Shown: positions 1,300-39,640 of the stretch, one piece after another
Position numbering within the stretch: position 1 is the first letter of the stretch
How the letters are laid out: each line of letters starts with the position of its first letter
Assembly (NCBI RefSeq): GCF_002234675.1
Contig: NC_019876.2
Span: 15,055,354-15,119,353, forward strand
DNA from: Oryzias latipes
Taxonomy: Eukaryota; Chordata; Actinopteri; Beloniformes; Adrianichthyidae
Direction: 5' to 3'
DNA: 64,000 nucleotides
The notes under the pieces: generated by a model
What the model was told of the DNA's origin: nothing
The model's database searches: none
Seen by the model: only the letters and a program-made list of their open reading frames with translations
Translations under genes and position numbers: made by a program

Positions 1300-1690
1300 G
1301 ATCATGTTTATGAGACAGGCAGCCATTTTTCCTGCTCATTTCAAAATCTCAAAAACATTTTTGGCTGGAAAATGTTTAGCTAATTTTAAGAATCTTTATA
1401 GTAAGTATAGTAAGTTATTGTTATGGACTACTGTGATGAGCACTTTATGGATTGAAAAAATGAGATATTCTGTACAATACAGTTACATCATATTTAAAAT
1501 GTGTGGAGGTAATTTGAGACAGTGGGTAAATAAGGTGTTTTTGACACGCATGGCAATATTTCTGCATCTTAAACTAACATTGTTTTGAGCAAAACTTACC
1601 AAATCAGAATTGATATTATCAGTCTCATAAAAAATGATTTAGCACATTTCTATGTGGATTTCATCAACGGGTCTAAAAACATCCTAATTC
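1300..1690 (+). repeat. Dispersed repeat family E
   Basis: CCTGCTCATTTCAAAAT, TTTGAGACAGTGGGTAAATA and ATCTTAAACTAACATTGTT recur in the same order at 29985-30360. AT-rich; class unknown. Confidence 0.55.
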
Positions 1691-3029
1691 CAAGAAAAGT
1701 ACTTGTATTTTCTGTAAATTCTTTGATACAGAGGCCTTTACAGGGTCACCATGCTCTTCATGTAAACCTCTATCATTTTTAAGTCTGTGTTCTCTATGAA
1801 CACAGAAGAACTGCAGACCTAACTGCCTTTTAATTTTATAATGTCTTCACTTGACCCTGAAGTCTAAAAGCAGTTGTGTGCAAACGCAGGACAAGGGTGC
1901 CGCTGTGTGATGTGTCCAGACGGAGGTCCCGGTCCGGTTCTCCCTCAGCGAAAACACAGAAGGCGGCTGAAGGTAATTGGCCGGAGTGGATGGCTCTCAG
2001 ATGTGAAGCAAAACTGATACAGATGGAAATATAAGAAAAGGAATCAAGGCAAGCATTGAGGGGAGGCAGTGGTGGTGGGGGGGACGGGGACGGAAGAGGC
2101 TTGATTGGAGAGGAGGAAACTTTCCCAGAGAAGGACATAAAACTGATTGATGGCTTCCCTGGAGGAATGTTTCCCCAGGTGTGCTGGCTGTGTGTTGCTA
2201 CAGTGCACTTAAGACATGCTATGCTTGGATGCAGGACAAGTGCAATAAGGTAAATTTGGGGGGGGCAGTTTGTGTGTCAATAATGTACTCTGGAGAAATC
2301 CGAGGTGGGTTTCATGAGCAACTTCAGAATTACAAATTGTAATTGATGACAGAAATCCTCCCTGAAATAATGGAAGTAAACATGAAACTGCTGAGGCGAG
2401 CTCTGAAGGTGGTCTGAGTCAGGTGCTCGGCGCTGCCAAGCTTTCCACTGGAGCGAGCCAGCCAGCGCCACAACACAACAAACACAACAAACACAACACC
2501 AGTCAGATGAAATACAAAATGTAGCTTTGACCCAATATGAAAAAAAGAGAGAGATTTCACAACACCCTTATGGGCTGTGTTTGGCAAATTACATCTGCCT
2601 AATAATCAAAAGTGACGTGAACGTGCAAACATTTTCAGATGCATTACTTCATGCTTATAACTCTGAAGACAACGTGACTTCATCTCAGCTCTATTTTCTT
2701 TCTTTTATCAAACATTGAAAAGTTGGGAAGCTTTTTAGTGCCTCAAAAATCCAAGTTTAACCAAAACATGGTTAAGGATTTATCTGCTCACCAACGTGAG
2801 TTTATTGGAAGTCTGCAGAAGGATAAGAAAGTGAGGAAAAATCTGCCTCCGCGAATGTTCTGGACTTTACATGTAGAAATCCCACCGCTTCCGGATCGAA
2901 GCACATTAAAAAAGCAAAAAACTAAAGGAAGAGAAGTCTAGTTCAACATGTAACCACTAAATGGCCTTAAACACAGCAAAGATGGTCCCATTGACTGTAT
3001 ATGAGAGCTAGAACAAGTGAGTGTAAAGT

Positions 3030-3270
3030 CATTTATAGAAAATAGCTGACTTCTGTCTCCAACCGAATGAAGTCGATTCTGTCGCCATTTCTTTGCGATA
3101 CAACCAACGCCATGTTGGGCCAGATAATGTCAGTAAGCTGTGATAGGTCAAAATCCGTCTGAGTCAACATTTCTATGGCAACCACTCTTATCAATCTGGA
3201 GAGGGCTTGTTGGAAGCCCCCCACCGACCACTTAAAAGCGGCCTACATGAAATCTGTCAGATCTGAAATC
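3030..3270 (-). repeat. Repeat family G copy
   Basis: The reverse complement contains GAGTGGTTGCCATAGAAATG and TGACTCAGACGGATTTTGAC, shared with 50755-50935 (GGTGGTTGCCATAGAAACGG) and 63670-63830 (AGTGGTTGCCATAGAAACAT). Non-coding; class unknown. Confidence 0.45.
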
Positions 3271-3364
3271 TGTGACATTTCTAACAAGCATTTTGAATCT
3301 TTATGGACTTCATTTCAGGAATATGGAGTCAGCTGATCAAGGGGACTTTATTCTCACGTTTGAA

Positions 3365-3460
3365 TCAAAAAATACATCCATCCATCTCCCAAACTCATTC
3401 CATCCCTTTTAGGGTCATAGGGTTGCTGGAGCCTATCCCAGCTCCCGCAGTTTGTTGCAG
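3365..3460 (-). mobile_element. SINE family A tail fragment, reverse orientation
   Basis: ATACATCCATCCATCTCCC followed by AGGGTCATAGGGTTGCTGGA and GCCTATCCCAGCT is the reverse complement of the SINE/LINE-like tail common in fish genomes. Confidence 0.45.
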
Positions 3461-5322
3461 GAAAATATCTCCTTTAAAAAAAAAAAAACATGTTAGCACC
3501 GACATCCTTTGGCTGTATAGAACTTTCTACTTTTTTAATGTCAATAAACAGCGTTGTTATAATTGTCTGCTGTTTTTTTATAGAGCTCTGCAAACAAATC
3601 AACCCGTAGTTGAATCAATGTTATATTTCATTTTATTCATTTTTTTTTTTTTAATTAGCTATTTAAAGCCATTTTTATCTGTGGTGGGAAGTAAAAGGTT
3701 AAAGGATGTAAAAGCAGGAGCAGGGGCGGAGCTACGGAGGGGAAAGTGGGGCAGTTACCCCCACTTGACCTCCAATTTTTGAGTCAATTTTAGTATCTTT
3801 GTTGACAAAGATTAAGAAATATCTTCTTCTACCCCCCCAGATAAATTGTTCTAGACCCTCCACTGAACAGAAGTGAAAACTGACGATTGATTTAAGTCTT
3901 AATGTTTTTCTTTCACTTTTCCAAAATAACTCTGTTGAACAAAACTGAATTCTGAAAAGTAACTGTACTTTAAAATAACTGTCAAAAACGCATCTGTTGT
4001 CATTTTCAATCAGTTTATACATGGAGAAAGTGTGGAGCTGTTTTTTTAACAAACATTTTCAGTTCAAAGAAGAAGTTAAGTTAGTCGACCGTTTCCCAGA
4101 CGACCATAAAACCGTTTGAGTGTTTTATGAAGCGTCTGCACTGACTGCCTGTTACAATAGATGTAACTGCAGACCCAACGGGCAGATTGCAGAAAAACCG
4201 GAGACACGACTAAGTCGTAAATGTTTATGAATTCACAAACTAGCCATGTGGACAGTTTGACAGAAACCCTGAAAGGTTTTTTTTTTGTCAAATGAGCTAC
4301 TGAGAAACAAAGACTGATGGCCATATAAAAGCTGATTGTTCCACAAATGAATATTTTTCTGGGTTTTTTTGTTTTTATGTTCAAAAAGAGCATTAAAAAG
4401 CAAAATTAAAGGAAGTTAATTGATGATTTTGATGTCAAAATGGGAGATTTTATCCTAAGAGAATTGTTCTAGTCCTTGATAACTAGGATCTGAATCTAAA
4501 CGCAGTGTTTTTGTGGTTTTGTCCTCATCTTAAGGGAAATCAACCCGTCAAACACTAAGGAAGCTGCTGCGTTGGGCGATTGATGGTCGAAGGATGGGAT
4601 AGACACGGGTTCCGATCCAGTATTTATCCCTACAGGATACTTAGCTTTACCGAACAAAAGAAAAAAAAAAGATTCAAATGATTTTCTTTCAGATGCTACA
4701 GTTCCGGTTTCTCAAATAGGAGAAATAAGCGGAAATGCAGTGTCTGTAAAGGGAGCCTCACACCCCACTCTTTGGCCAAGACAAAGTTTATAAGCTCCAA
4801 GTGTAATCCAGAGTTGTTCCTGACACTGGCAGCTGTTGCACGGGCTGCAGTCCTGTTGGCTCGCGCTGGCGTCACGCTGATAAATGAGCTAACTGAACAT
4901 GATGCACCTTTGTTGGAGCAGTTGACTCCTGGGCTCGCCGCCGCCGCCGCTCCAAAACGTTTTCTCCCTGCATCCGGAACTGTAATGACGGCAGTTCACA
5001 CAACTGCTTTGATGGGAAACATGTGTGGCAGAGTGAAGAGGAGCTGCCATTGTTGTTTTAACCAACGACTACAGGAGATCTTGGAGAGGAAGAGTTGGAG
5101 GATTTTCTCTGGTTTGGAAAAATTCTAAAACTTTGTCTTTTTTCAAGCTACACAAGAAATTTGTGTTGGTGTCGGAAACAAAATACTCTCTTCTGAATAT
5201 TCAGTTTGTTTCAGATGAGGCGGGGGTTTTTTTTAATCAAGGGGAGAAAAAAACATAAAACCAAATTTGCCTGTCGTAAAGAAAAACAAGCATCAAACTA
5301 CATTGTGGTAAAACCCTATAGA

Positions 5323-6328: not shown

Positions 6329-9300
6329 TTACTCAGACGTTCCCCAAAGTGCAGGTTTTAGTTGGTCAGAGGCGGCTGCTGCACCGGTGTGTGCGTGCCC
6401 CCACTGACTCCTCTGCGCCCTCTTGTGGCCGTGCTCAGCAGCGCTGCTGTGAGCCTCTTCAGGGCTGCTGCAGCTCTCACATGCACTATCTTCTCCATCC
6501 ACTGACCTCCATCTGTCGGGAAAACCGGCCTCGTCACGCTGGAAACCCTGCAGGAGGTTCGGCTCAAACCTGTGAAAGCTCACCTCCCATCGATGAAGGA
6601 GCACGCCCGGTGCTCTGATGCCAGAGCAGCCTCCAGGTAACAGGTGATGTAGATCTGAAGGGAAGGTAGGTCACATGATCACACACTTTCCCCCTGACAT
6701 CCAAAACAAACAAAACATAAAGAAATCTTTCACTTGGCACGGACATTGCGCCTGTGGTCCTGGTGGAAGAGGAAAGGCTGCAGCTGAATATGGAGGAGTT
6801 GATCCTGAACTCTGGGCAGGAAGCGAGATCTGGAGCCGCTCAGCAGGGAGTCCGTGAAACATCTGCGGAGAACAGAAGAAGCTCTTTTCAGCCCAGACCG
6901 ATGGCGTCAGTGACATCCATTAAGGCGGAGGGACAGCAGAAGGCGCGGGGCCTCACCCGCGGTGGTCTATGAAGGGGTATCTGGGGTGAGAGGTCACATC
7001 GGGGGTCAGGGTGGCCACGCAGCTGCCTACATACAGGCGAAGAGAAGGGTTGGGATGATCCACGGAGGCCTCCATGTTGACCGTTTCTCCCATGAAGTAG
7101 ACGGGGAATTTCCTTTCAGAGCTCCAGTCACCTGGAAGGGCAAAGAAAATTTTCTTTTTGTGTTTTTCTTCCTTTCCAGCCGTCTGTTGCGGCGACACAT
7201 TGGATTCGGCGCGGGTGAACTCACTCGTCATGAGTCTGAGGCGGAAGTCCAGCTGCAGGTGAGTGGACTGCACAGAGATGTGAGGAGTCCAGGTTGGCCT
7301 CAGCTCGCCGCTGCTCACCGTGTACTTCCTGCGGGACATGGAGGAGAACCTCGCCTTTACAAAACATCCATTTCAACCGTTTGCCTGAAAAAACCCGCTC
7401 CGGTCACCTTCTAAATCTATTGTAGAAGCGTTCCCAGTGCTCTTTTAATCAGGATTTTGGCATTTTCAGCCAAAACAGAGAAAACTGTTGTTTACTTTCC
7501 GCAGGAGTTTAGTAGAAATTTACTTCTGAGATGTAGGCCGGACTTAACAGTTGGCATGGAGTAATCCCCCACTATCCATCTGTTTATATTCTCTCCCACT
7601 AGCTTACAGCCCCTCACATCCCAACCAAACATTAGCAGTGCAACAAAAACGGCGAGCAATCCCGGAGCTTTCCCACCGTGCAGCTTTGAGCCAGATGCAG
7701 CTGTAGTTTGTTGCAGTTAAAAGAAAGTATTTACCGATTATGATATGTTTAATAAGCAACATTGTATAAGCTCACATCTGATGATATGAAATACAACATT
7801 TGAAGAGCTAAAACCAAACATTTCTTGGAAGGAAGTGCAGCCTCTCACCTCTAAATGTATTCCTTTCCTGTAAAATCTGCATGGATGCTTTTAGTTTACA
7901 TTGAAATTCTTTGCTCATCACCCAGGGTCAGACATTTGACAATTATAGGTTGATTTTTAAATTTAACTATTACTATAATCTTTGCAAACACGTCCTACAA
8001 TTTTTTCTTGTGTATTAAAACTGAAAAAAAAAAACGTGATCTTCTAATCTTTTTCCGTGATTTTCTGAGTTTGGAAAGGCTACAAAAGCAAAGAACTAAG
8101 ATTTAACTGATCTCATGAAAACTATGAGATGAGCTGCAATTAAAAGTAGAAAGCCACAAAGTGTCTCAGACATGATGGGTTTTATTCTTCCCGCTGACTT
8201 TATCCACCAACACCACAGAGAAAAACCTTGGATTTGGTTCCATTGACCAGAACTGAAAACGAGCTCCAGCCGCAGTTTGTCTGAAACTCGCCATAAATGA
8301 TCACAAAAACATCCCAAGTTGTCATTATTGTTGAAATAATCTCCACAGAAACACAGAATATGGTTCTTCTGAAGTTCCAGGAATGACATCACTTATCTCC
8401 TCGCTAAAAAAACAATTCAAGTGAGAAAAAATGACCTCAAAGTTGACCACACCCACAATGTGAGCGTCCAGCAGGTCACACACAGACTTTGCTGCTTTGT
8501 GCCCGATATTGTCGTCAGGATCGACTCACAACACCACAGAAATAAACAAACACGTCATGTTGGTCAATATTTAACCCTTCCAAGGTTTTTCTCTGTGGTG
8601 TTGGTGGATAAAGTCAGCAGGAAGAACAGAACCCATCATGTCTGAGACACGGAGCCACACTTTGTGGCTTTGCAGCTTCTTCATCTTGTAGTCTTCATGA
8701 ACAGATGACGTCATCGCCCAGCCTGTAACTTCTCTCTTAAAAATAATAAAAACCAAAATCAAGGAAAATATTTGAACCAAGATCCCACCTTTATTTTTAA
8801 TACATGAAAGAGTTTGCAAAGTTTAAAGAAAAAGTTGATTTTTCAAAATCTGAGAAAAATCAATGTTTGAAATGAATGCAATACAATATTTACGGATGTG
8901 ATGTACATAAAATACATATGAAACCCAAAACACAAATCCTTTTATAATATGAAGACTCTAAAAAAGAAACGTATCCAGTAGAGAAGCCAGCCATCTTTAC
9001 TTATTTCACATAAAATACAATATTAAACTAAAGAGTTCCAGTTCTCAAAACTACATAACATTCTTACAGATAATGTCATCAGATTTATGTCATTATCTTG
9101 AAATTCATGTCCATGGGGCGGCCATGGGGCAGCGGGAAGAAGACTGGAAGATTGCAGGTTCCATTCCCTCCTCGCCCACCCATATGTCAAAGTGTCTTTG
9201 GGCAAGACAGTGAACCCCTCCTTGCCTCTGGTGGTTAGAGGTCGCCAGGGTCGGCAGCAGAGTCAGTGTGTGACTGGAAAGCACTTTAGAAGTGTGCGCC

Positions 9301-12300
9301 GTTTATATGTCAGAGCACTCATAACGTGAGAACAAAGAACCAGGTTTTTATGCAGAGCAGTCAAAAACTCATTTCATAGGTCTGAGTTTAACTGCAATTA
9401 ATTCTGAAATTATTTTTTTTCCTTGTTTTTACCAAAATGTCATCGACTGATTTTTATGGAGTTAATTCAGTCTCAATAATCAGAAATGCACACAACCGGT
9501 TTTACAAATGCACACGCTCCGATTCACAAATGTCATTTTATGCAAACGTGAAAAAAAAATTCGGAAATACACACCCTGTGTTTCACAAACACACAGATTG
9601 TGTTTCACAAATGCACACTAAATGTTTTACAAATGCACAATAAGTGTTTCTCACAAATGTGCACACTGTGTTTCACAAAAAACATTTTAGAAATTCACAA
9701 TAAATGTATCAGAAATACACAGTAGGTGCTTCACAAACATGATTTTTAGGTACACATGTGATGTGAACTCACAGATCATTCGAACTGCAGACTGTGCATT
9801 CAAAATCCCGTTCTCATTTGTGAATCTCCCCGTGTGTGTGAGAGATTTTTCTACGGTGAATATTGAGACTCATCTGACGGAGCGGGTCAACTAATGTCAC
9901 CATTGGCTAGTGAATCTGTCAATCAAACTCATCGGCAAAGCAGGCGGGTTCGCTTTTAGCCAATCGAATGGCCCCTTACACTTTCTCTACGCTTTCTGCA
10001 GGTGGCAAAAGCCCCGCCCATATTTAATTCTGTACCAGTCGGTCGTTAGCGTGTTAGCCTTAGCATGGCTTGTCGGTTTATTGCCTTCGGTTGTCAAAAA
10101 TTACTGGCTTGTGCAACTTTTCAGTGGACCTGGAAGCAAGGCAACAGTGGTTGAATGCAGTTGACATTGAATCCATCGAACTCTGTACTGGTCATGAGAT
10201 TTACAATGAATGTTTCACTCGGGATTGTTTGTACGTTATTCTCTTAGCTTTCATGCTAGCGTCATTTCAACACTCAGACACGGTTTGGATCATATGAAGG
10301 TGGAGGAGAAAAATCTTCAACTTCCACAGGTTTTGTGGAGAAACTGTCATCACTTTGCTCCGTACCACGCAGTGGGACTACATTACCTCAAGTTCATCTC
10401 ACTGTCAATCACAGACGCCCAATATACACCTCCCCTGCTCAGCCCGAAGTCACTTTGCTTGACCTTAATTTTATTTTTTTAATAACTCAAATGTCATTGA
10501 TTTTATATTGTAACCATATACATATACACCTCTTGGCCAGGTCACCCTTGCAAAAAAGATCCTCATCTCTCTGGGTTTTATAGCTGGTTAAATACTACAC
10601 AACAAAAGATGGTCATAGAACAACAAAGTGCAAACATTCACCCTTTATTGCAGAGTAAAATTCAGTGAAAACATGGACAGATTAAAACATCAAAATTTAA
10701 GCAAATGTGGGATCTCTACTGATTTGAATTTTATTTAAACTGGAACTAATTTTCATAACTTCCTTACATACAATGAAGTCCCTTGAACAATACAGCAGTA
10801 TTGATTTGAACTCTGTCTTCCTCCCCTCAGTCTCTCTTCTTCTGTTTGTAATTATGTCCCCTAAATTAAGTTCGAAACACACTGGACAGTAAAGATGTAG
10901 GTCAACTCCCAAACGGTCTGAATTCCACAATGGATTGATGTCGTCTTGCAGTTCCAACATTTGTGGACCCAAAAGAGGACTGTCCAATACCGGGACATTG
11001 ATCCCAGGATGAGGTTCAGTCATGGATCCACTCTCCTCCCATTCAATCTCTGGAACCAGCATACCCTGACAAAAAAAAAAAAAAAAAAACTGTTTATGAA
11101 CAGCACTGTTTTTTTGTGTTTTAGATTATGTAGGAACAGTGACCGACTAATAATAACTTATATTGTTGCTTGCAGGCAGACCTCATATCTCCATAACTGT
11201 TTATAATTTTCAAATAAGTGAACCTTAACAAAGTAGTGACATTAGTACATCTGATGGCTCATAAGGCCATGCATTGTGATGCATTTTGAACTTGCAGATG
11301 TGCTATTCTTCCTACAAACAAACAATTTAGGGAAATTGTTTGCACCACACAACAATAATCCTTTTCATTCATTTTCGATGAAAATTCACTGTAGTCATTA
11401 TGATTTCATGATACTCTTCTTGATACTTTCCACTTTAGTCAAACTGCACACAAATCAGTTGTCCAGTACAGTGAGATTAAATAAAGCATTTACCCGGGGA
11501 TCAGAAACAGGGTTCTGGGTCAAGCCCAACTGCCACAGCTGATTTGGTGTCATGCTTTGCTCCGTCCTGATTGGATGGCTGTCCCACGCGTCACTAAAGA
11601 CATCCAAACTGGCCTGAATGCGTGGTAGAAAAATGTAATGGCAGCAGAATACGTGATGTGACTGATATTGAGCAAGTCTTGGTCCTCAGGAGAGTGCAGG
11701 ATGTTGTAATATAAACCAGTAACACTCATGAAGACGTCACACCAGAGGAGCTCAATCCTGTATTTGGAAAAAAGCAAAAAGAAATATTATATTGTCAGAT
11801 TTATTTTTAATACATCATTCACTTTTATGTATCAGGGCTCCAGACTAACTTTTTTCACTAGGAGCATAGTGGCCCCTAACTGAAAATTTTAGGGGCACAA
11901 CCAGAAAATTTAGGGGCGCATACCGTAAATCAACATTCTAACCAAATCTACTAATTTCCACTGTATTACAAATAAATACTTTAATACTAGATGCAGAAAT
12001 TACAATGTGCTGTTTCTAATTCGGTGTCATATTTTATTCTGCACTTTTGAAGATGCAACATGAAGGTAAACTGACAGCACCATTGCTGTCACGACAGTAC
12101 AACTAAGTAAAAATAGTAAAAAAAATACCATACTTTTAGAATAAAAAAAAGTTTTTAGTAACAAGTGATTACCGTAGTAACCTTTCGGTCATTTCACAGT
12201 TTCAAACAATACTTAAATGTATGTAAATATTAGAGGATGGAAATTCATGTTGGTGACACCAAATAGGTTCAGCCAAGATGCACAATAAGCGTGTTTGAGA

Positions 12301-15300
12301 TCACCCAGATGGACGCAACACTGCACAGATCACCTGGTGTGTGACGTATATTTTTGTTTTTGCTCCAACATCACCTGTCAATCAAAACAAAAATATCACG
12401 AGAAAGGGGTGAGAGCAAGACACCAATCAGAGCGAACGCAGCTGGAAATTTAGTATTGAACTGACTAAAAGCTGCCCTACAGACTAAAAAACAATGCATT
12501 ATGGGACATGCGTCCTGATGGGTTTTTTGTAGTTCACTGATCAATTAAAATAATTTAAAATACCAACTGATTAAAAAAAGGCTACATCCATTACAAAACA
12601 TTAAAATAATTATAAAAGATGTAATATCACAGCTCATACTTAGGGGGAGAGGCATATTAAAACGAAATTGAATGTTAAGGACAACTCCTAATTCCTGGTC
12701 TCTTTCAGTCTCGCTGCAGCTTCGACTTCATGCGAGTTTGAGACCCCTGCTGTACACTCTGTCACTGGTACACTAGCTGCAGGTCGGAAGAACGAATCAA
12801 TAGTTCGCTTGCTCATAGCTCAGACGCACATATCAGGTTGTGATATTTGTCTCCGTTTCCTTCCCACGGATGTTTACGCGCGCTCGATTATCTCTAGGCC
12901 CCGCCCCTCCACATATTTTGGCCACTTGCAGTGACTTTCCCTATTCTTCTCACACGCAGTGGCCGCCTCAGGCATCACTCAATGAAACGCGAGTGTGTGC
13001 TCGCGTGTGGTCCAGTCTCATGAGTATTCGCGTGAGTGTGTGTGTCTGCCTGCGTGCGTGTGCGCTCGCGTCTCATTGATGATTTCATCTCTCATTTCAT
13101 CGATCATTGACGTGCTCCTTTCATGTTTAATGTATAAAAAATACGGAGGGTGGAGGAGGCAAATTTACTGGTAGCACATGTGCGACTGGGTGTAAAATTC
13201 AGTCGCACACTCTCAAATTTTGGTCGCAAAATGCGACCAAATGGACGCAGTCTGGAGCCCTGTGTATATATTAAAGCTTCTAAAACTAGGTTCAACTCAC
13301 CGTTGATTGTGTGTACACTTTTCCCACAATGAAGCCGTTTGTGTCAGTTGTACGTACTGTGAGCATTAACTCGGCTATGCCCACATTTTCTCCTCCGTGA
13401 TCTCCTCTCACCCTGACAATAACATGAAAATCATGTCTCAAACACATAATTACAAATGCATCGCCAATACGGTACACATCAGTTTAAAATGTAATGTTCT
13501 TATGTATGATGCCAATAAGTAGAATTTCTAGGTTAAAAAAATTGCAGGAGTGGGTTACATGTATCACTGAGGAAAAAAATGAGGTGAGAGAGACTGTTAA
13601 GGGGGGGTAAAATGTTATTCATGAGGGGAAAGTTTTAGAGTTGACTTTGTTTATGGAGAGGAGTCTAAAAAAAGTTATTTTATGTTTGTACAAATAACCA
13701 AGTACTTATACTGCCTGATATGTGAATAAAATATTTCTTTATGAATAACATGAATACCTCAGAGGAAAGCCATAAACGTTCACAGCGTCACTGAAGAAGG
13801 CCAAGTGGGTGTCTGCACAGTTGTTGTCTGCTATCTTCTCAGGTACAAGATCTATGGAATACAAGTACAAATACTTTCAACTGACAGATGTTTACGGCGG
13901 CAAAAATGCTAAATTCCCAATTGACAGGTAAAACAGTAAAACAATAGGATGATAAAATATGAAATAGAATAGAATAGAAGGGTATTTAATAATCCCTGAG
14001 GAATTTTTTTTTAAATGGCCATCTTAAAAAAACACATAAGTGTTTATGTGTTTTTACATGCATTACAAATAGAAATATCACAAAATAAAAAGATTGATAA
14101 AATAAGGTAAATAATTGGAAAATCAGTGGGTAAAATTAAAAGAAATTACTTGTAAGATGCCCTGCCAGAGAGTTGTATTGCCTGATGTCACGAGGAACAA
14201 AAGATTGTCACGCTGTCACATTCAGTAATTCCTAGAGAATAAATAAAAACATGACAAACATGGATTAGATAATTTAGCTGTCTGATCTTAAATTACATAA
14301 TTTTCAAATATATGAAAGGGGAATTTTTTAAAACACTCTTGCTATGATTACTTGAGCTTGTAGTAAAGAACACCTTTAAAAAAAATCAGAGACAAGACAC
14401 TGATCACAGGAAGCCTGTGTGTAATACTTACAGTAACTTCTACTCTAATCACTGTTGACAGCTGATTTCTCCCATCCACCCTTTCTGTGACTACTTATCG
14501 ACTACAAAACAGCCTAAAAACATAATGTTTGGGATTCTTGTCATTACGTCATTGGAAGTAAAGATACGGGGATTTTAGTGGCTTTAGAGGCTTCTTTCAT
14601 TCAACAGTGGATTCATGTCTGTTATATTTAAAAAATGCCGTTTTCATGAATGTCATATGAAATAACTTTGTTGCACAGTCCACCCCGTCTTAAAGTCTGG
14701 GTTGTGAAAATGCTGTGTCTAACTTTAACCCGGATCGCGTTTACATAAGGCAGCACACGGAACAACTAGCTAGTTAGCATAGCATAGCATCAGTGTTAAA
14801 CAAATCGCCGTCTCCAAATCAATACTTTTTATTATACTTTCTTTGCTGCTGTAAATCCGGCATGCTTTTCCCCTTAGTTCCTTATGAATCATGTTAAGAA
14901 CCTACAGATCATTGGCTATAGACGCTAGCTTGAACCGACACCGGCTTGAACTTCACTCACACTCACAGGCAGACACAACTTGCACAGGCTAAGCAAAACA
15001 AAGCTAAGCTAATTTGCGGTGGGGGTACTCTGCAAACGACTCGGCTGCAGTGTTCATAAAGCATTCACACATGTCACTTGGCAAAGGAGAACGCTTCAAC
15101 TTAGTATTCAATAACATTACAGGACGTACAACGAGGGAATGATCAAATAAGTGCATTACTTACGGGCTGAGACTGATCCCGTTCAGAAGACCTCTCCGCC
15201 ATGTTTGCCGCCCGCGTCCTTTCAACTGCTGTGCTGAACAGCTCTCTCCCTCGTCACTTTGAAAGTGAGGAGTGTAAGGGGCCATTCGATTGGTTAAAAG

Positions 15301-16958
15301 CGAACCCGCCTGCTTTGCCGATGAGTTTGATTGACAGATTCACTAGCCAATGGTGAGATTAGTCGACCCGCTCCGTCAGATGAGTCTCAATATTCACCGT
15401 AGAAAAATCTCTCACACACACGGGGAGATTCACAAACGAGAACGGGATTTTGAATGCACATTCTGCAATTTGAATGATCTGTGAGTTCACATCACATGTG
15501 TACCTAAAAATCATGTTTGTGAAGCACTTACTGTGCATTTCTGATACATTTATTGTGAATTTCTAAAATGTTTTTGTGAAAAACAGTGTGCACATTTGTG
15601 AGAAACACTTATTGTGCATTTGTAAAACATTTAGTGTGCATGTGTGAAACACAATCTGTGTGTTTGTGAAACACAGGGTGTGTATTTCCGAATTTTTTTT
15701 TCACGTTTGCATAAAATGACATTTGTGAATCGGAGCGTGTGCATTTGTAAAACCGGTTGTGTGCATTTCTGATTATTGAGACTGAATTAACTCCATAGAT
15801 TTTGTTCCACAGGATTCCTGGACTGCAATTTCACAATTCTTCCTTCTTACTGCGGCTTTGAGCCAAATTTGGATACAGACACGAAAATTCACCAGAAATT
15901 TGCACGTACATAAAATCTGCTGAAAATGAATTTTGGGGAGGAAAGAGGACCCCCCCCCCATGATGACATCACAGCAGGTGAGACCGACAAAAAGAATTTG
16001 GGGACCAGAAAAATCTTTTATGGTGCTCATAAAAAGTTTTTTTAAAGCCCACCAACGAAATGAAAACATACGTCAGAGTCATTTAGACAAAGTGTAAAAA
16101 GTTATTATGGGATGGCCACAGCATTTATGGCTTGGCGAGCATTTTGTGAGGAAATGTGGCGATTATCATGTTTTTGCGGAAAATGGGAAATGCTAATCTT
16201 CACACACATGTCATCAAGCTAAGTCTACTACCACAAAAGAAGTTTTTTTGACTTTTGACCTCAGGAAAAGGCTGCCATCTTAAATTTTCCAAAAGAAACA
16301 CTACCAGCTACAAATTTTAATCTGATTTTGATCTATCGGTAATAATGTAAATATGTTTAGTTTCTGGGTTTTTTTTAGCCCCTCCTCCTTACCTTTTATA
16401 CTGACACAGCACAGGAATGGCGGCCTCCTCCACGTCCACGGCTGATGAGGGGAGAGGCAGCAGCAGCAGGTTGCTGAAAAGTACAGCACTCTGTGTAAAC
16501 TAGAGCGTGGAGGACACAGAGCACTATCAGGTTACACCGCTAGGCGGCAGCATTCAGCAGCTGCGACACGACGAAAGCCCCCCGCTGACCATCATTGAAC
16601 TCCCGCACTCTGTCAGCGGAACGTGGATGACGTAGTCTCCGCTCGCGGACAGCCTGGCGGCGCAGTGGTCTCGCGCGCGGGACAGCCCGAGCCTGGGCCG
16701 CGCGGACTCCTCAAAGAACCCAATGTCATCAGGGGGGGCTTTTACCACCACCTCCACGCTGTCCGCCTCACACCTCACCACGTAGACCTCCGCGGAACTA
16801 GGCCGCCCCGACGCCGAAGCCGCTTCCAGGTCCGCGTAGGACCGGAACAAAGGTTCGGACTGATACGAGTAACCCCCGACTGACCCGGTTCTGTACAGGA
16901 CTTCAACCAGAACCGCAGAATAAACAAAAACAAGACGCGTTGTTTGCTGCATTTTCAA
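6329..16958 (-). CDS. zp3: Zona pellucida sperm-binding protein 3-like (egg-coat ZP-domain protein), 7 exons, complete
   Basis: Secreted structural protein of the egg envelope; ZP-N and ZP-C modules polymerise into the filaments of the chorion. Exons on the minus strand: 16958-16590, 16499-16393, 7328-7225, 7131-6957, 6862-6745, 6654-6584, 6512-6329; all phases join and give 375 aa. Residues 1-29 include a hydrophobic leader. ZP-N has the four expected cysteines (C63, C99, C118, C155) and the family's CGS turn; ZP-C follows with the motifs DWSSER, SCVATLTPD, RYPFIDH, FLPRVQD, IYITC and ACSFIDGRW. Residues 345-349 (KRAQR) form an RXXR furin-type site before a short tail with no transmembrane segment, as usual in fish ZP proteins. 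Two donors are weak (GTCAGC after exon 1, GTCCGT after exon 5) but are the only ones that keep ZP spacing and phase. Intron 2 (9.1 kb) contains the large transposon. Fish have several ZP3 paralogues (a-f); I cannot say which one this is. Confidence 0.9.
8148..8680. repeat. Fold-back inverted repeat in ZP3-like intron 2
   Basis: About 85 bases at 8148-8232 (GCCACAAAGTGTCTCAGACA to CAGAGAAAAACCTTGG) pair with 8579-8680 (CCAAGGTTTTTCTCTGTGGT to CACACTTTGTGGCTT). A loop of about 345 bases separates the arms. The right arm carries a few extra bases (GGAGC near 8650). Confidence 0.8.
9105..9330 (+). mobile_element. SINE family C copy
   Basis: GCGGCCATGGGGCAGCGGGA, the box-B-like GCAGGTTCCATTCCC and GTCTTTGGGCAAGACAGTGA are typical of a second fish tRNA-derived SINE; the tail is the AGCACTTTAGAAGTG type. 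Reverse copies are at 55245-55450 and 58893-59108. Confidence 0.55.
9455..9982 (+). repeat. Left terminal inverted repeat of the 6.3-kb transposon
   Basis: It pairs with 15271-15797 over its whole length with few mismatches. Its first half is made of degenerate short units of the type GTTTCACAAATGCACA repeated about ten times at 25-30 base spacing; the inner part is unique sequence ending near CGAATGGCCCCTTACACT. Confidence 0.9.
10064..10260 (+). pseudogene. Possible THAP-like zinc-finger remnant inside the transposon
   Basis: The ATG at 10064 opens MACRFIAFGC; after a frame change the sequence reads FSVDLEARQQWLNAV and then LCTGHEIYNECF. The order C-x(n)-C, F, W, then C-x2-H matches a THAP (C2CH) finger, a DNA-binding module in several transposase families. 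The frame is broken. The same sequence occurs in the second copy (37460-37640), also broken. It is on the strand opposite to the integrase-like exons, so it may be a second element gene. Moderate to low certainty. Confidence 0.4.
10860..15202 (-). pseudogene. Broken multi-exon transposase with integrase-like core (transposon-borne)
   Basis: Recognisable minus-strand exons: 15202-15164 (starts MAERSSERDQSQP, donor GTAAGT), 13851-13758 (ends NVYGFP), 13412-13301 (core motif GDHGGEN), 11757-11494 (IELLWCDVFMSVTGLYYNIL) and 11065 to about 10860 (C-terminal INPLWNSDRLGVDLHLY). The GDHGGEN motif and the later R/W-rich segment are what I know from integrase-type transposases of fish DNA transposons. 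A 2-base AC expansion near 13310 shifts the frame just before the next exon, and exons between 13851 and 15164 are not identified. The intron between 13301 and 11757 was split by the nested hAT-type element. Non-functional as it stands. Confidence 0.65.
11833..13262. mobile_element. Nested 1.4-kb hAT-type non-autonomous element
   Basis: It starts CAGGGCTCCAGACT and ends AGTCTGGAGCCCTG, a perfect 13-base terminal inverted repeat after one unpaired flank position. TGTAT abuts both ends (11828-11832 and 13263-13267). CAGGG-type ends are typical of hAT elements; the expected 8-bp duplication is not perfect here. No transposase is seen. The right part has a CpG-rich stretch (12880-13080). It interrupts an intron of the transposase pseudogene and so is younger than the host element. 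Confidence 0.72.
15271..15797 (-). repeat. Right terminal inverted repeat of the 6.3-kb transposon
   Basis: Reverse complement of 9455-9982 with few differences, for example a short stretch around 15465 and the length of an A run. It ends at CTCCATA directly before the GATTTT duplication. Confidence 0.9.
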
Positions 16959-17065
16959 TAGCTTTTTTTTTCCCTACTCGGTAACCTGGAGGCTGGAGGA
17001 TCACAGCTGAGGTTAATCAGCTCTGATTACAGACAAACATCACTCTGTAGCCTCTGAACAACCTT

Positions 17066-36856: not shown

Positions 36857-38766
36857 TATGGAGTTAATTCAGTCTCAATAATCAGAAATGCACACAACCG
36901 GTTTCACAAATACACACACTCTGATTCACAAATGTCATTTTATGAAAGCGTGAAAAATAAATTTGGACATTCACACCCTGTGTTTCACAAACACACACAT
37001 TGTGTTTCACACATGCACATTAAATGTTTTACAAATGCACAATAAGTGTTTCTCACAAATGTGCACACTGTGTTTCACAAAACATTTTAGAAATTCACAA
37101 TACATGTCTCAGAAATGCACAGTAGGTGCTTCACAAACATGATTTTTATGTTTACATGTGATGTGAACTCACAGATCACACGAATTGCAGAATGTGCATT
37201 CAAAAACCCGCTCTCATTTTTGAATCTCCCCACATGTGTGAGAGATTTTTCTACGGTGAATATTGAGACTCCTTGACGGAGCAGGTCAACTAATGTCATC
37301 ATTGGCTAGTGAATCTGTCAATCAAACTCATCACCAAAGCAGGCGGGTTCACTTTTAGCCAATCAAATGGCCCCTTAGACTTTCTTTTCACTTTCATGCA
37401 GGTGGCAAAAGCCCCGCCCATATTTGATTCTGTACCAGTTGGTCGTTAGCGTGTTAGGCTTAGCATGGCTTGTCGGTTTATTGCCTTCGGTTGTCAAAAA
37501 TTACTGGCTTGCGCAACTTTTCAGTGGACCTGGTGGCAAGGCAAAGGTGGTTGAATGAACTTGACATTGAATTCAGCGAACTGTGTCCTGGTCATGAGAT
37601 TTACAATGAATGTTTCACTCGGGATGTTTGTACGTTATCCTTTTTAGCTTTGATGCTAGCGTCATTTCAACACTCAGACACGGTTCCCTTCGGTCTTGAT
37701 TAAATTAAGGTGGAGGAGAAAAATCTTCAACTTCCACAGAAGGTTATGTGGAGAAACTGGCATCACTTTCCTCCGTACCACGCAGTGGGACATTACCTCA
37801 AACTCATCTCACTGTCAATCACAGATACCCAATACACCTCCCCTGCTTAGCCCGAAGTCACTTTGCTGGACCTTAATTTTGTAATAACTCTGTCATTGAT
37901 TTTATATTGTAACCATATTTCTGCTGCTAACCTCTTGGCCAGGTCACCCTTGCATAGATCTTCATCTCTATGGGTTTTACAACTGGTTAAATACTACACA
38001 ACAAAAGATGGTCATAGAACAACACAGTTAAAACATTCACCCTTTATTGCCGAGTAAAATTCAGTGAAAACATGAACGGTTTAAAACATCAAAATTTAAG
38101 CAGATGTGGGATCTCTACGGATTTTATTTAAACTGGAATTAATCTTCATAACATCCTTGCATACAATGAAGTCCCTTGAACAAAGCAGTATTTATTTGAA
38201 CTTTGTCTTGCTCCCCTCAGTCTCTCTCCTTCTGTATGTAGCCTAAATTAAGTTCTAAACATACTGGACAGTGAAGATGTAGGTACATCTGATAGCTCAC
38301 AATGCCATGCATTGTGATGCATTTTGAATTTACAGATGTGCTATTCTTCCTACTTGATTTAAAAAAAAAACAATTTAGGGAAATTGTTTGCGCCACACAA
38401 CAATAATACTTTTCAAATAATGTGCGATTCATTTTCGATTAACATTCATTGTAGTCATTGTGATTTCATGATACTGTTCTTGATACTTTCCACTTTAGTC
38501 GAACTGCACACAAATCAGTTGTACAGTACAGTGAGATTAAATAAAGCATTTACCGTACCTAGGGATCAGAAACAGGGTTCTGAGTCAAGCCCAACTGCCA
38601 CAGCTGATTTGGTGTCATGCTTTGCTGCGTCCTGATTGGATGGCTGTCCCACGCGTCACTAAAGTCATCCAAACGTTGTACGAAAATATAGTGGCAGTAG
38701 AATAAGTGATATTACTGATGCTGAGCAAGTCTTGGTCCTCAGGAGAGTGCAGGATGTTGTAATATA
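36857..38766 (-). mobile_element. Second, right-truncated copy of the IS3EU-like transposon
   Basis: It begins TATGGAGTTAATTCAG and follows the left 2.25 kb of the 9455-15797 element: the inverted repeat with CACAAATGCACA units, the broken THAP-like region (37465 on) and the exon homologous to 11494-11757. Homology stops near 38766 in a TATA-rich junction followed directly by a LINE 3' end. The right half, right inverted repeat and hAT insertion are absent. Several small internal deletions separate it from copy 1, for example about 200 bases in the counterpart of 10880-11230. Confidence 0.8.
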
Positions 38767-38797: not shown

Positions 38798-39640
38798 TCA
38801 CCCTTCTGCGGGTGGTTTCTCCTCCAAGCTCGGGTCGTCTACCAGAGGCCTGGGAGCTTGAGGGTCCTGCAGTATCTTAGCTGTTCCTAGCACTGCGCTT
38901 TTTTGGACTGAGAGGTCTGAAGTCTTTCCAGGTATCTGTTGTAGCCACTCCTCCAGCTTGGGGGTTACTGCCCCGAATGCTCCAATTACCACAGGCACCA
39001 CTGACACCTTCACTTTCCACGCTTTCTCCAGTTCTTCTCTGAGTCCCTGGTATTTCTCCAGTTTCTCATGTTCCTTCTTCCTGATGTTCCCATCACTTGG
39101 CACTGCCACATCCACCACAACGGCTTTCCTCTGTTCTTTATCCACCACTACAATGTCTGGTTGGTTCGCCATTACCATCCTATCGGTCTGGATCTGGAAG
39201 TCCCACAGGATCTTTGCTCTGTCATTCTCTACCACCTTCGGAGGTTTTTCCCATTTTGACCTTGGGGTTTTCAGTCCATGTTCTGCACACATGTTCCTGT
39301 ATATAATTCCAGCCACTTGATTGTGGCGCTCCATGTATGCTTTACCTGCTAGCATCTTACACCCTGCAGTTATGTGCTGGATTGTTTCAGGCGCCTCTTT
39401 GCACAGCCTACACCTTGGGTCTTGTCTGGTGTGGTAGATCTGAGCCTCTATTGCTGTGGTGCTCAGGGCTTGTTCCTGAGCTGCCAGGATGAGCGCTTCA
39501 GTGCTGTCCTGTAGGCCAGCCCTTTCTAGCCATTGCTAGGACTTCTTGATATCAGCCACTTCAGTTACCTTCATGTGCTTAGGATGAGACAACACAGCTG
39601 ATCTGTGGGGCAGGGGACATGCCAGTCCCCGACTGGGAAA
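38798..39640 (-). pseudogene. 3' fragment of a non-LTR retrotransposon with restriction-like endonuclease domain
   Basis: An open frame of 185 codons (39355-38798) carries QPDIVVVDKEQRKAVVVDVA, the PD-(D/E)XK-type endonuclease core of R2/NeSL/Rex6-like LINEs, followed by GAVTPKLEEWLQQIPG. Just upstream in the same frame (39360-39420) lies a CX2CX8HX4C zinc knuckle, typical of these proteins before the endonuclease. A stop codon interrupts the frame near 39533. The fragment is 5'-truncated, as usual for LINE copies, and ends near 38770 in an A/T-rich tail beside the truncated DNA transposon. The exact clade is not resolved. Confidence 0.78.

Follow-up and report, generated by a model that had tools for sequence, protein, structure and literature searches.

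A recently amplified IS3EU-like transposon with a relic transposase in an intron of a medaka ZP3-type gene, and a candidate helper element

What is the 6,343-bp transposon copy that occupies positions 9455-15797 of a 64,000-nucleotide stretch of the Oryzias latipes genome (the whole of which we call the window), and does it carry what it would need to move? A preliminary description of this DNA had presented it as a complete element inside an egg-coat gene intron, with an interior that encodes an integrase-core transposase split into several exons. Here, we examine the ends of this copy, the copies related to it, the remains of its transposase and an element elsewhere in the genome that may have mobilised it.

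Ends of the element and its host intron

On re-reading, the bounds of the element and the lengths of its arms kept the coordinates first given to them. The termini are TATGG..CCATA, and an exact GATTTT abuts each of them (9449..9454 on the left and 15798..15803 on the right, letters read directly), representing the target duplication. Arm alignment delimits a left terminal inverted repeat of 528 bp, which starts TATGGAGTTAATTC (9455..9982, plus strand), and a right one of 527 bp, whose last letters are CCATA (15271..15797, minus strand). The two arms are 97.73% identical over 528 columns, with 11 mismatches and one gap, and their outermost 155 bp are identical. The left arm contains a sub-terminal array of sites similar to CACAAATGCACA (9481..9721, plus strand), with ten matches at up to three mismatches, two of them overlapping. 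The spacing is 22 bp in five of the nine gaps, and TRF reports a repeat of period 22 at 9565-9679. Elsewhere in the window, 528-bp stretches hold 0.37 such matches on average and never more than three. We infer from this pattern that the array may be a set of putative transposase binding sites. On the plus strand near 10065-10230, a THAP-like reading made by eye was rejected, as Pfam gave no support for the pieces or for their joined form (only DDE_2, E 0.22).

The placement in an egg-coat gene intron was borne out. Residues 1-157 of an O. melastigma ZP3 protein (P0039) match the minus strand at 16952-16392 and residues 156-250 match it at 7333-6956, and these matches, with splice sites read by eye, define intron 2 of a ZP3-type gene as a GT..AG intron at 7329..16392 (minus strand) that holds the element. 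The window shows a ZP-C domain at 6956-7372 (E 7e-11) and, weakly, a ZP-N domain at 16557-16973 (E 0.021, below the cut-off); P0039 itself has both. The transposase relic of the element lies on the same strand as this host gene.

A family of copies with a shared relic

When the genome (734 Mb in 25 contigs) was searched with the left arm, 929 first-look candidates came up, of which 40 were scored matches; these are all 99-100% identical over 528 bp. One is the window copy, 24 fall in 20 regions that we read and 15 lie outside those regions. The 20 regions and the window copy form our sample of 21 copies, which is not a random one because the regions are those nearest to the window's own left arm. 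Each of the 20 regions holds a two-armed element of 6,360-8,677 bp, so the pairing of inverted arms is not a matter of chance, and other copies with the same ends do exist in the host genome, as one would expect of a transposon. TATGG..CCATA is found at both ends in 19 of these 20 further copies, while L027 has CCAGA at one end.

Exact 6-bp target duplications flank 17 of the 21 copies, the window copy included, and the 17 hexamers are all different (that of L024, TTTTTT, is of low information). Among them, A at position 2 (10/17) and T at position 5 (12/17) are weakly favoured. The remaining copies have a duplication of 5 bp (L022), one in which five of six bases agree by eye (L029) or none (L027 and L037). 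These four could be taken to mean that the copies spread by segmental duplication or recombination and not by transposition, but exact direct repeats of 17 different sequences that abut the ends, on many contigs, leave that explanation barely credible.

Two further features bear on the history of the family. First, L021, L023 and L024 carry an extra insert of about 1.15 kb at the same place near element base 3032, which we take to be hAT-like; its ends are TAGGGTTG..CAACCCTA, and CTACAGAC was read on both sides of it in L021 and L023. This shared insert is a marker of a sub-lineage. Second, the window holds a truncated copy (36857..38766, plus strand; two blastn blocks at 89% and 86%) that consists of the left part only and is without 342 bp relative to the first copy. 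It differs from the left-arm consensus at 42 positions and is an older member of the same family. A frame at 38801-39535 adjoins this truncated copy, with a weak zf-RVT match below the cut-off (E 2.7e-4).

The interior of the element does contain integrase-type exons, as the preliminary description had it. On its minus strand, three of the four frames given match rva_4 (PF24764), with a best E of 4.5e-14. What these exons amount to, however, is a relic with frame lesions inside exons. We located the pieces, exon 1 apart, with a 366-aa Melanotaenia relative (P0001) as the protein query. Relic exon 1, MAERSSERDQSQP, at 15164..15202 (minus strand, tblastn with P0059 at 100%), has the same 13 residues as the helper protein P0059 introduced below and is readable in 13 of the 21 copies. 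The other pieces, all on the minus strand, are an exon for about residues 139-169 of P0001 at 13757..13861 (tblastn 69% over 135-169), an exon with the second catalytic Asp in the motif GDHGGEN at 13319..13417 (protein match), an exon with the catalytic Glu for residues 206-294 at 11497..11759, and a C-terminal exon for residues 295-364 at 10859..11068 (tblastn 66%). The frame of the Glu exon is broken at residues 240/241, and its lesion string is found in 20 of the 21 copies. We assign these conserved acidic residues to a presumptive catalytic triad from the family pattern.

In total, the window copy keeps, in pieces, about residues 139-364 of P0001; measured against P0059, it keeps residues 1-13 and then pieces from about residue 253 on. 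The helix-turn-helix part and the first catalytic Asp are gone, since the first residue of the triad falls in the missing part. No match to P0001 before residue 106 was found at E<=1e-3 in any of the 21 copies; four copies have a match that begins at 106, where the alignment is gapped and 37-38% identical. Lesion strings are common to exon C in 20, exon B in 18 and exon A in only 11 of the 21 copies.

A nested insertion of 1,430 bp with inverted ends CAGGGCTCCAGACT...AGTCTGGAGCCCTG was read in an intron of the transposase (11833..13262). It occupies the corresponding place in all 21 copies, in L032 up to its base 1396. By eye, its flanks have TGTAT alone in common, without a clear 8-bp duplication, and its frames reach only 60-86 aa. 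Because the nested insert and the frame lesions are common to the copies, those that multiplied were dead already.

Thus the word complete holds for the ends of the element but not for its coding part: the stretch with the first Asp was found in none of the 21 copies, and most of them share frame lesions within exons. The same two observations count against the window copy being an autonomous IS3EU element with a transposase spliced from several exons, a reading that draws on the plausible splice sites of the exons and the catalytic motifs still recognisable in them, and on the four O. latipes gene models (P0011, P0013, P0027 and P0036) that are built from such exons. Identity between these models and relic segments is 75-100%, except for one segment at 56%, but the models are only 122-234 aa long and the stretch VHIDTNHK is in none of them. 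We therefore regard autonomy of the window copy as very improbable. Since the models match relic exons, the annotated O. latipes genes include relics of this family, and the family accounts for all four models.

The near-identity of the arms had been put down to either recent insertion or arm homogenisation. We dropped arm divergence as an insertion clock, and left/right identity is unusable for dating here, because nine of the 12 left/right differences of the window copy also separate the majority left and right arms. Over the 21 copies, the consensus left and right arms differ at ten sites, of which the window copy shows nine, and its left and right arms each have three differences from their respective consensus. 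The left/right difference of the window copy is therefore mostly inherited. Homogenisation finds support: several of the ten sites show both alleles within the left or within the right arms of the copies, and in six copies (L021-L025 and L040) the two arms differ by no more than 0.8%, a pattern that arm-to-arm conversion would produce. Recency holds as well, on other grounds. Divergence from the majority sequence is 0.7-1.4% (about 1%) among the copies, and pairs of copies differ by 1.6% on average, which argues that an element already dead was amplified recently and that the burst is young on this scale, a relative statement and not a date.

A candidate helper element

If the copies were dead when they multiplied, what moved them? 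Residues 1-140 of P0001 led to P0059, a 477-aa protein of O. latipes (LOC144987876) with acidic residues D230, D287 and E322, whose first 13 residues are those of relic exon 1 (13/13). Searched against the genome, P0059 had 1031 first-look candidates, 89 of which were scored and yielded 131 matches; among these, near-complete sets of its exons occur at two loci, on C18 and C19. At the C19 locus, segments 1-13, 14-238, 253-283, 320-409 and 409-477 match at 100%, and the short GGIDG exon and the second-Asp exon can also be read. Outside the short GGIDG exon, the exon borders that were checked are plausible splice sites. A TGA was flagged in the match to residues 14-241 at both loci, and we place it in an intron because residue 238 is the last of the exon and the letters gtctga follow. 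At the C18 locus, segment 320-409 matches at 98.9%. All three catalytic residues are thus present at the C19 locus, and the part with the first of them was found in none of the 21 relic copies.

The C19 exons lie with inverted repeats in an element of 16,454 bp that runs from TATGGAGTCAATTC to GAATTGACTCCATA (C19:23575617-23592070). Base 9560 of the joined C19 stretch had looked like the right end, a reading ruled out by the true end. The inverted repeats comprise 1,194 bp at 99.75% identity plus 169 bp at 95%, and the flanks, GGACTT and GAACTT, agree at five of six bases. Transposase exon 1, together with the stretch upstream of it, is part of the inverted repeat and is therefore present at both ends of the element. 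The C18 copy is 99.76% identical to the C19 element over the 11.9 kb compared, and the one end read has the same TATGG terminus with a different flank.

The two arms of the window copy match the repeat of this element at 499/527 and 502/527 positions (about 95%), and the right-hand 819 columns of the two elements at 93.8%, against 76-86% for interior blocks, so the outer ends are the best-kept part. The inner repeat of the C19 element is no better kept than the interior, at 76% over 198 bp. The CACAAATGCACA-like sites lie at the same or one-base-shifted positions in both, and the stretches absent from the relic are about 1684-3538 and nearly all of 7346-15081 of the larger element.

From these comparisons we consider it highly probable that a non-autonomous IS3EU-type transposon inserted recently to give the window copy, and that it was mobilised by the intact transposase of the 16.5-kb helper. 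The order of events would start from a longer autonomous ancestor, in one copy of which most of the interior, with the DNA-binding part of the transposase and the first catalytic Asp, was deleted and the terminal repeats that a transposase needs were retained. This deleted copy would then have gained the nested element in its intron and amplified while carrying the dead gene. The helper's intact integrase-type DDE transposase, being of the same lineage, would bind the ends, probably at the 22-bp-phased array, mobilise the relic and join it to the target across a 6-bp stagger, which would produce the 6-bp duplication.

The relic family might have been moved by another IS3EU-like transposase encoded in this genome, one more distantly related, since other loci match P0059 at about 40-48% and some have long frames without stops. 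However, it is the C19/C18 element that shares with the relics exon 1 (13/13), ends at about 95% and the motif array, in a comparison of ends that covered this element only, and we think another mover unlikely. Among the other loci, frames at G000:C6:12730863-12731939 and G000:C23:14821686-14822762 are IS3EU-like, 41% identical to P0059 and free of internal stops, and possibly belong to separate families. About 38 further loci, counted by eye, match P0059 near residues 281-316 in open frames of roughly 190-250 aa; in those looked at, a match to 355-410 lies about 220 bp off, which is the helper spacing. This spacing points to a possible sister group of relics that lack the nested insert.

Returning to the helper itself, its minus strand at about bases 9290-14500 has open frames opposite to the transposase that possibly form a second multi-exon gene. 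Pfam gave nothing above the cut-off for these frames (best XAF1_C, E 0.0055), and a HECT-ligase-like reading was set aside, with no Pfam HECT match and a best E of 0.57 in a PDB search with one piece. Separately, a zf-RVT frame at bases 6470-6958 (E 1.7e-9) is a LINE-type remnant, and the C18 copy is collinear there. A more ambitious picture of the 16.5-kb element is conceivable but rather doubtful: it may be a recently active autonomous IS3EU transposon in which each long repeat supplies a promoter and the same first exon, and so starts one of two convergent genes, that of the transposase and another on the strand opposite to it; in this picture the element may still be moving the 6.4-kb relics in medaka.

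IS3EU elements have been little studied. An intact candidate helper together with a young, repeated, dead derivative in one genome, most likely that of a laboratory fish, makes the mechanism of the superfamily testable, in particular which end sequences are required and how the 6-bp stagger arises.

Relationship to known transposons

Set against published descriptions, the ends, the 6-bp duplication and the transposase affinity of the element fit the IS3EU type, and the preliminary description's call of an IS3EU-like transposon agrees with what we found. IS3EU elements have TA..TA termini and usually 6-bp duplications, according to the accessible part of PMC10045372, and the corresponding part of a report on rust fungi gives TAYGG..CCRTA ends for TET-bearing families (PMC12730594). 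P0059 matches PF24764 at E 1e-71, and its matches to the NCBIfam models for IS3 (E 3.6e-8) and IS481 (NF033577, E 1.8e-10), significant although neither reaches the curated cut-off, place the relatives of the relic near IS3/IS481 transposases. An N-terminal HHCC zinc motif, which IS3EU should lack, did not turn up in the one pattern scan made of P0059.

Structure comparisons were less informative. A PDB sequence search with P0059 returned nothing significant (best E 0.46). Its predicted model has a pLDDT of 70 and a pTM of 0.46, with pLDDT under 50 around the first Asp. A fold search with this model gave just four matches at E<=0.001; the top ranks were IstA, Mu transposase and the HTLV-2 integrase core, at low TM-scores to the query of 0.22-0.24. 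These ranks agree weakly with a predicted integrase-type DDE chemistry.

In the titles and abstract starts of literature on IS3EU, GingerRoot and medaka transposons, which are no proof of absence from print, none describes this family. A 2016 survey of four teleosts, in the part available, has just one value for IS3EU; going by the order of the columns we read it as that of zebrafish, so that none would be given for medaka (PMC4746887). The insertion of the medaka pc mutant was excluded as a relative, as the available part of its description gives TTAA duplications (PMC2706989).

Like IS481EU, the family has a transposase with affinity to the IS481 model, below cut-off as noted. IS481EU, however, makes duplications of about 4, 15 or 25 bp, and its ends in T. 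vaginalis are TNT..AYA, whereas here we find 6 bp in 17 of 21 copies and TATGG..CCATA; Ginger1 and Ginger2 differ in having 4-bp or 4-5-bp duplications (all from the accessible part of PMC10045372). With IS3EU, including GingerRoot, the family shares TA..TA termini, a 6-bp duplication and a DDE transposase related to IS3/IS481. It differs in that the window copy is without a working transposase and in that the helper, at 16.5 kb, has repeats of about 1.2 kb that hold the first exon, a layout unmet in those parts of published descriptions that we compared. Internally deleted derivatives that are moved in trans are familiar from Ds of Ac and similar systems. As in those, the ends here are kept, the interior is lost and the lineage is common with an intact element, but the derivative is still about 6.4 kb long and contains a recognisable relic and nested elements.
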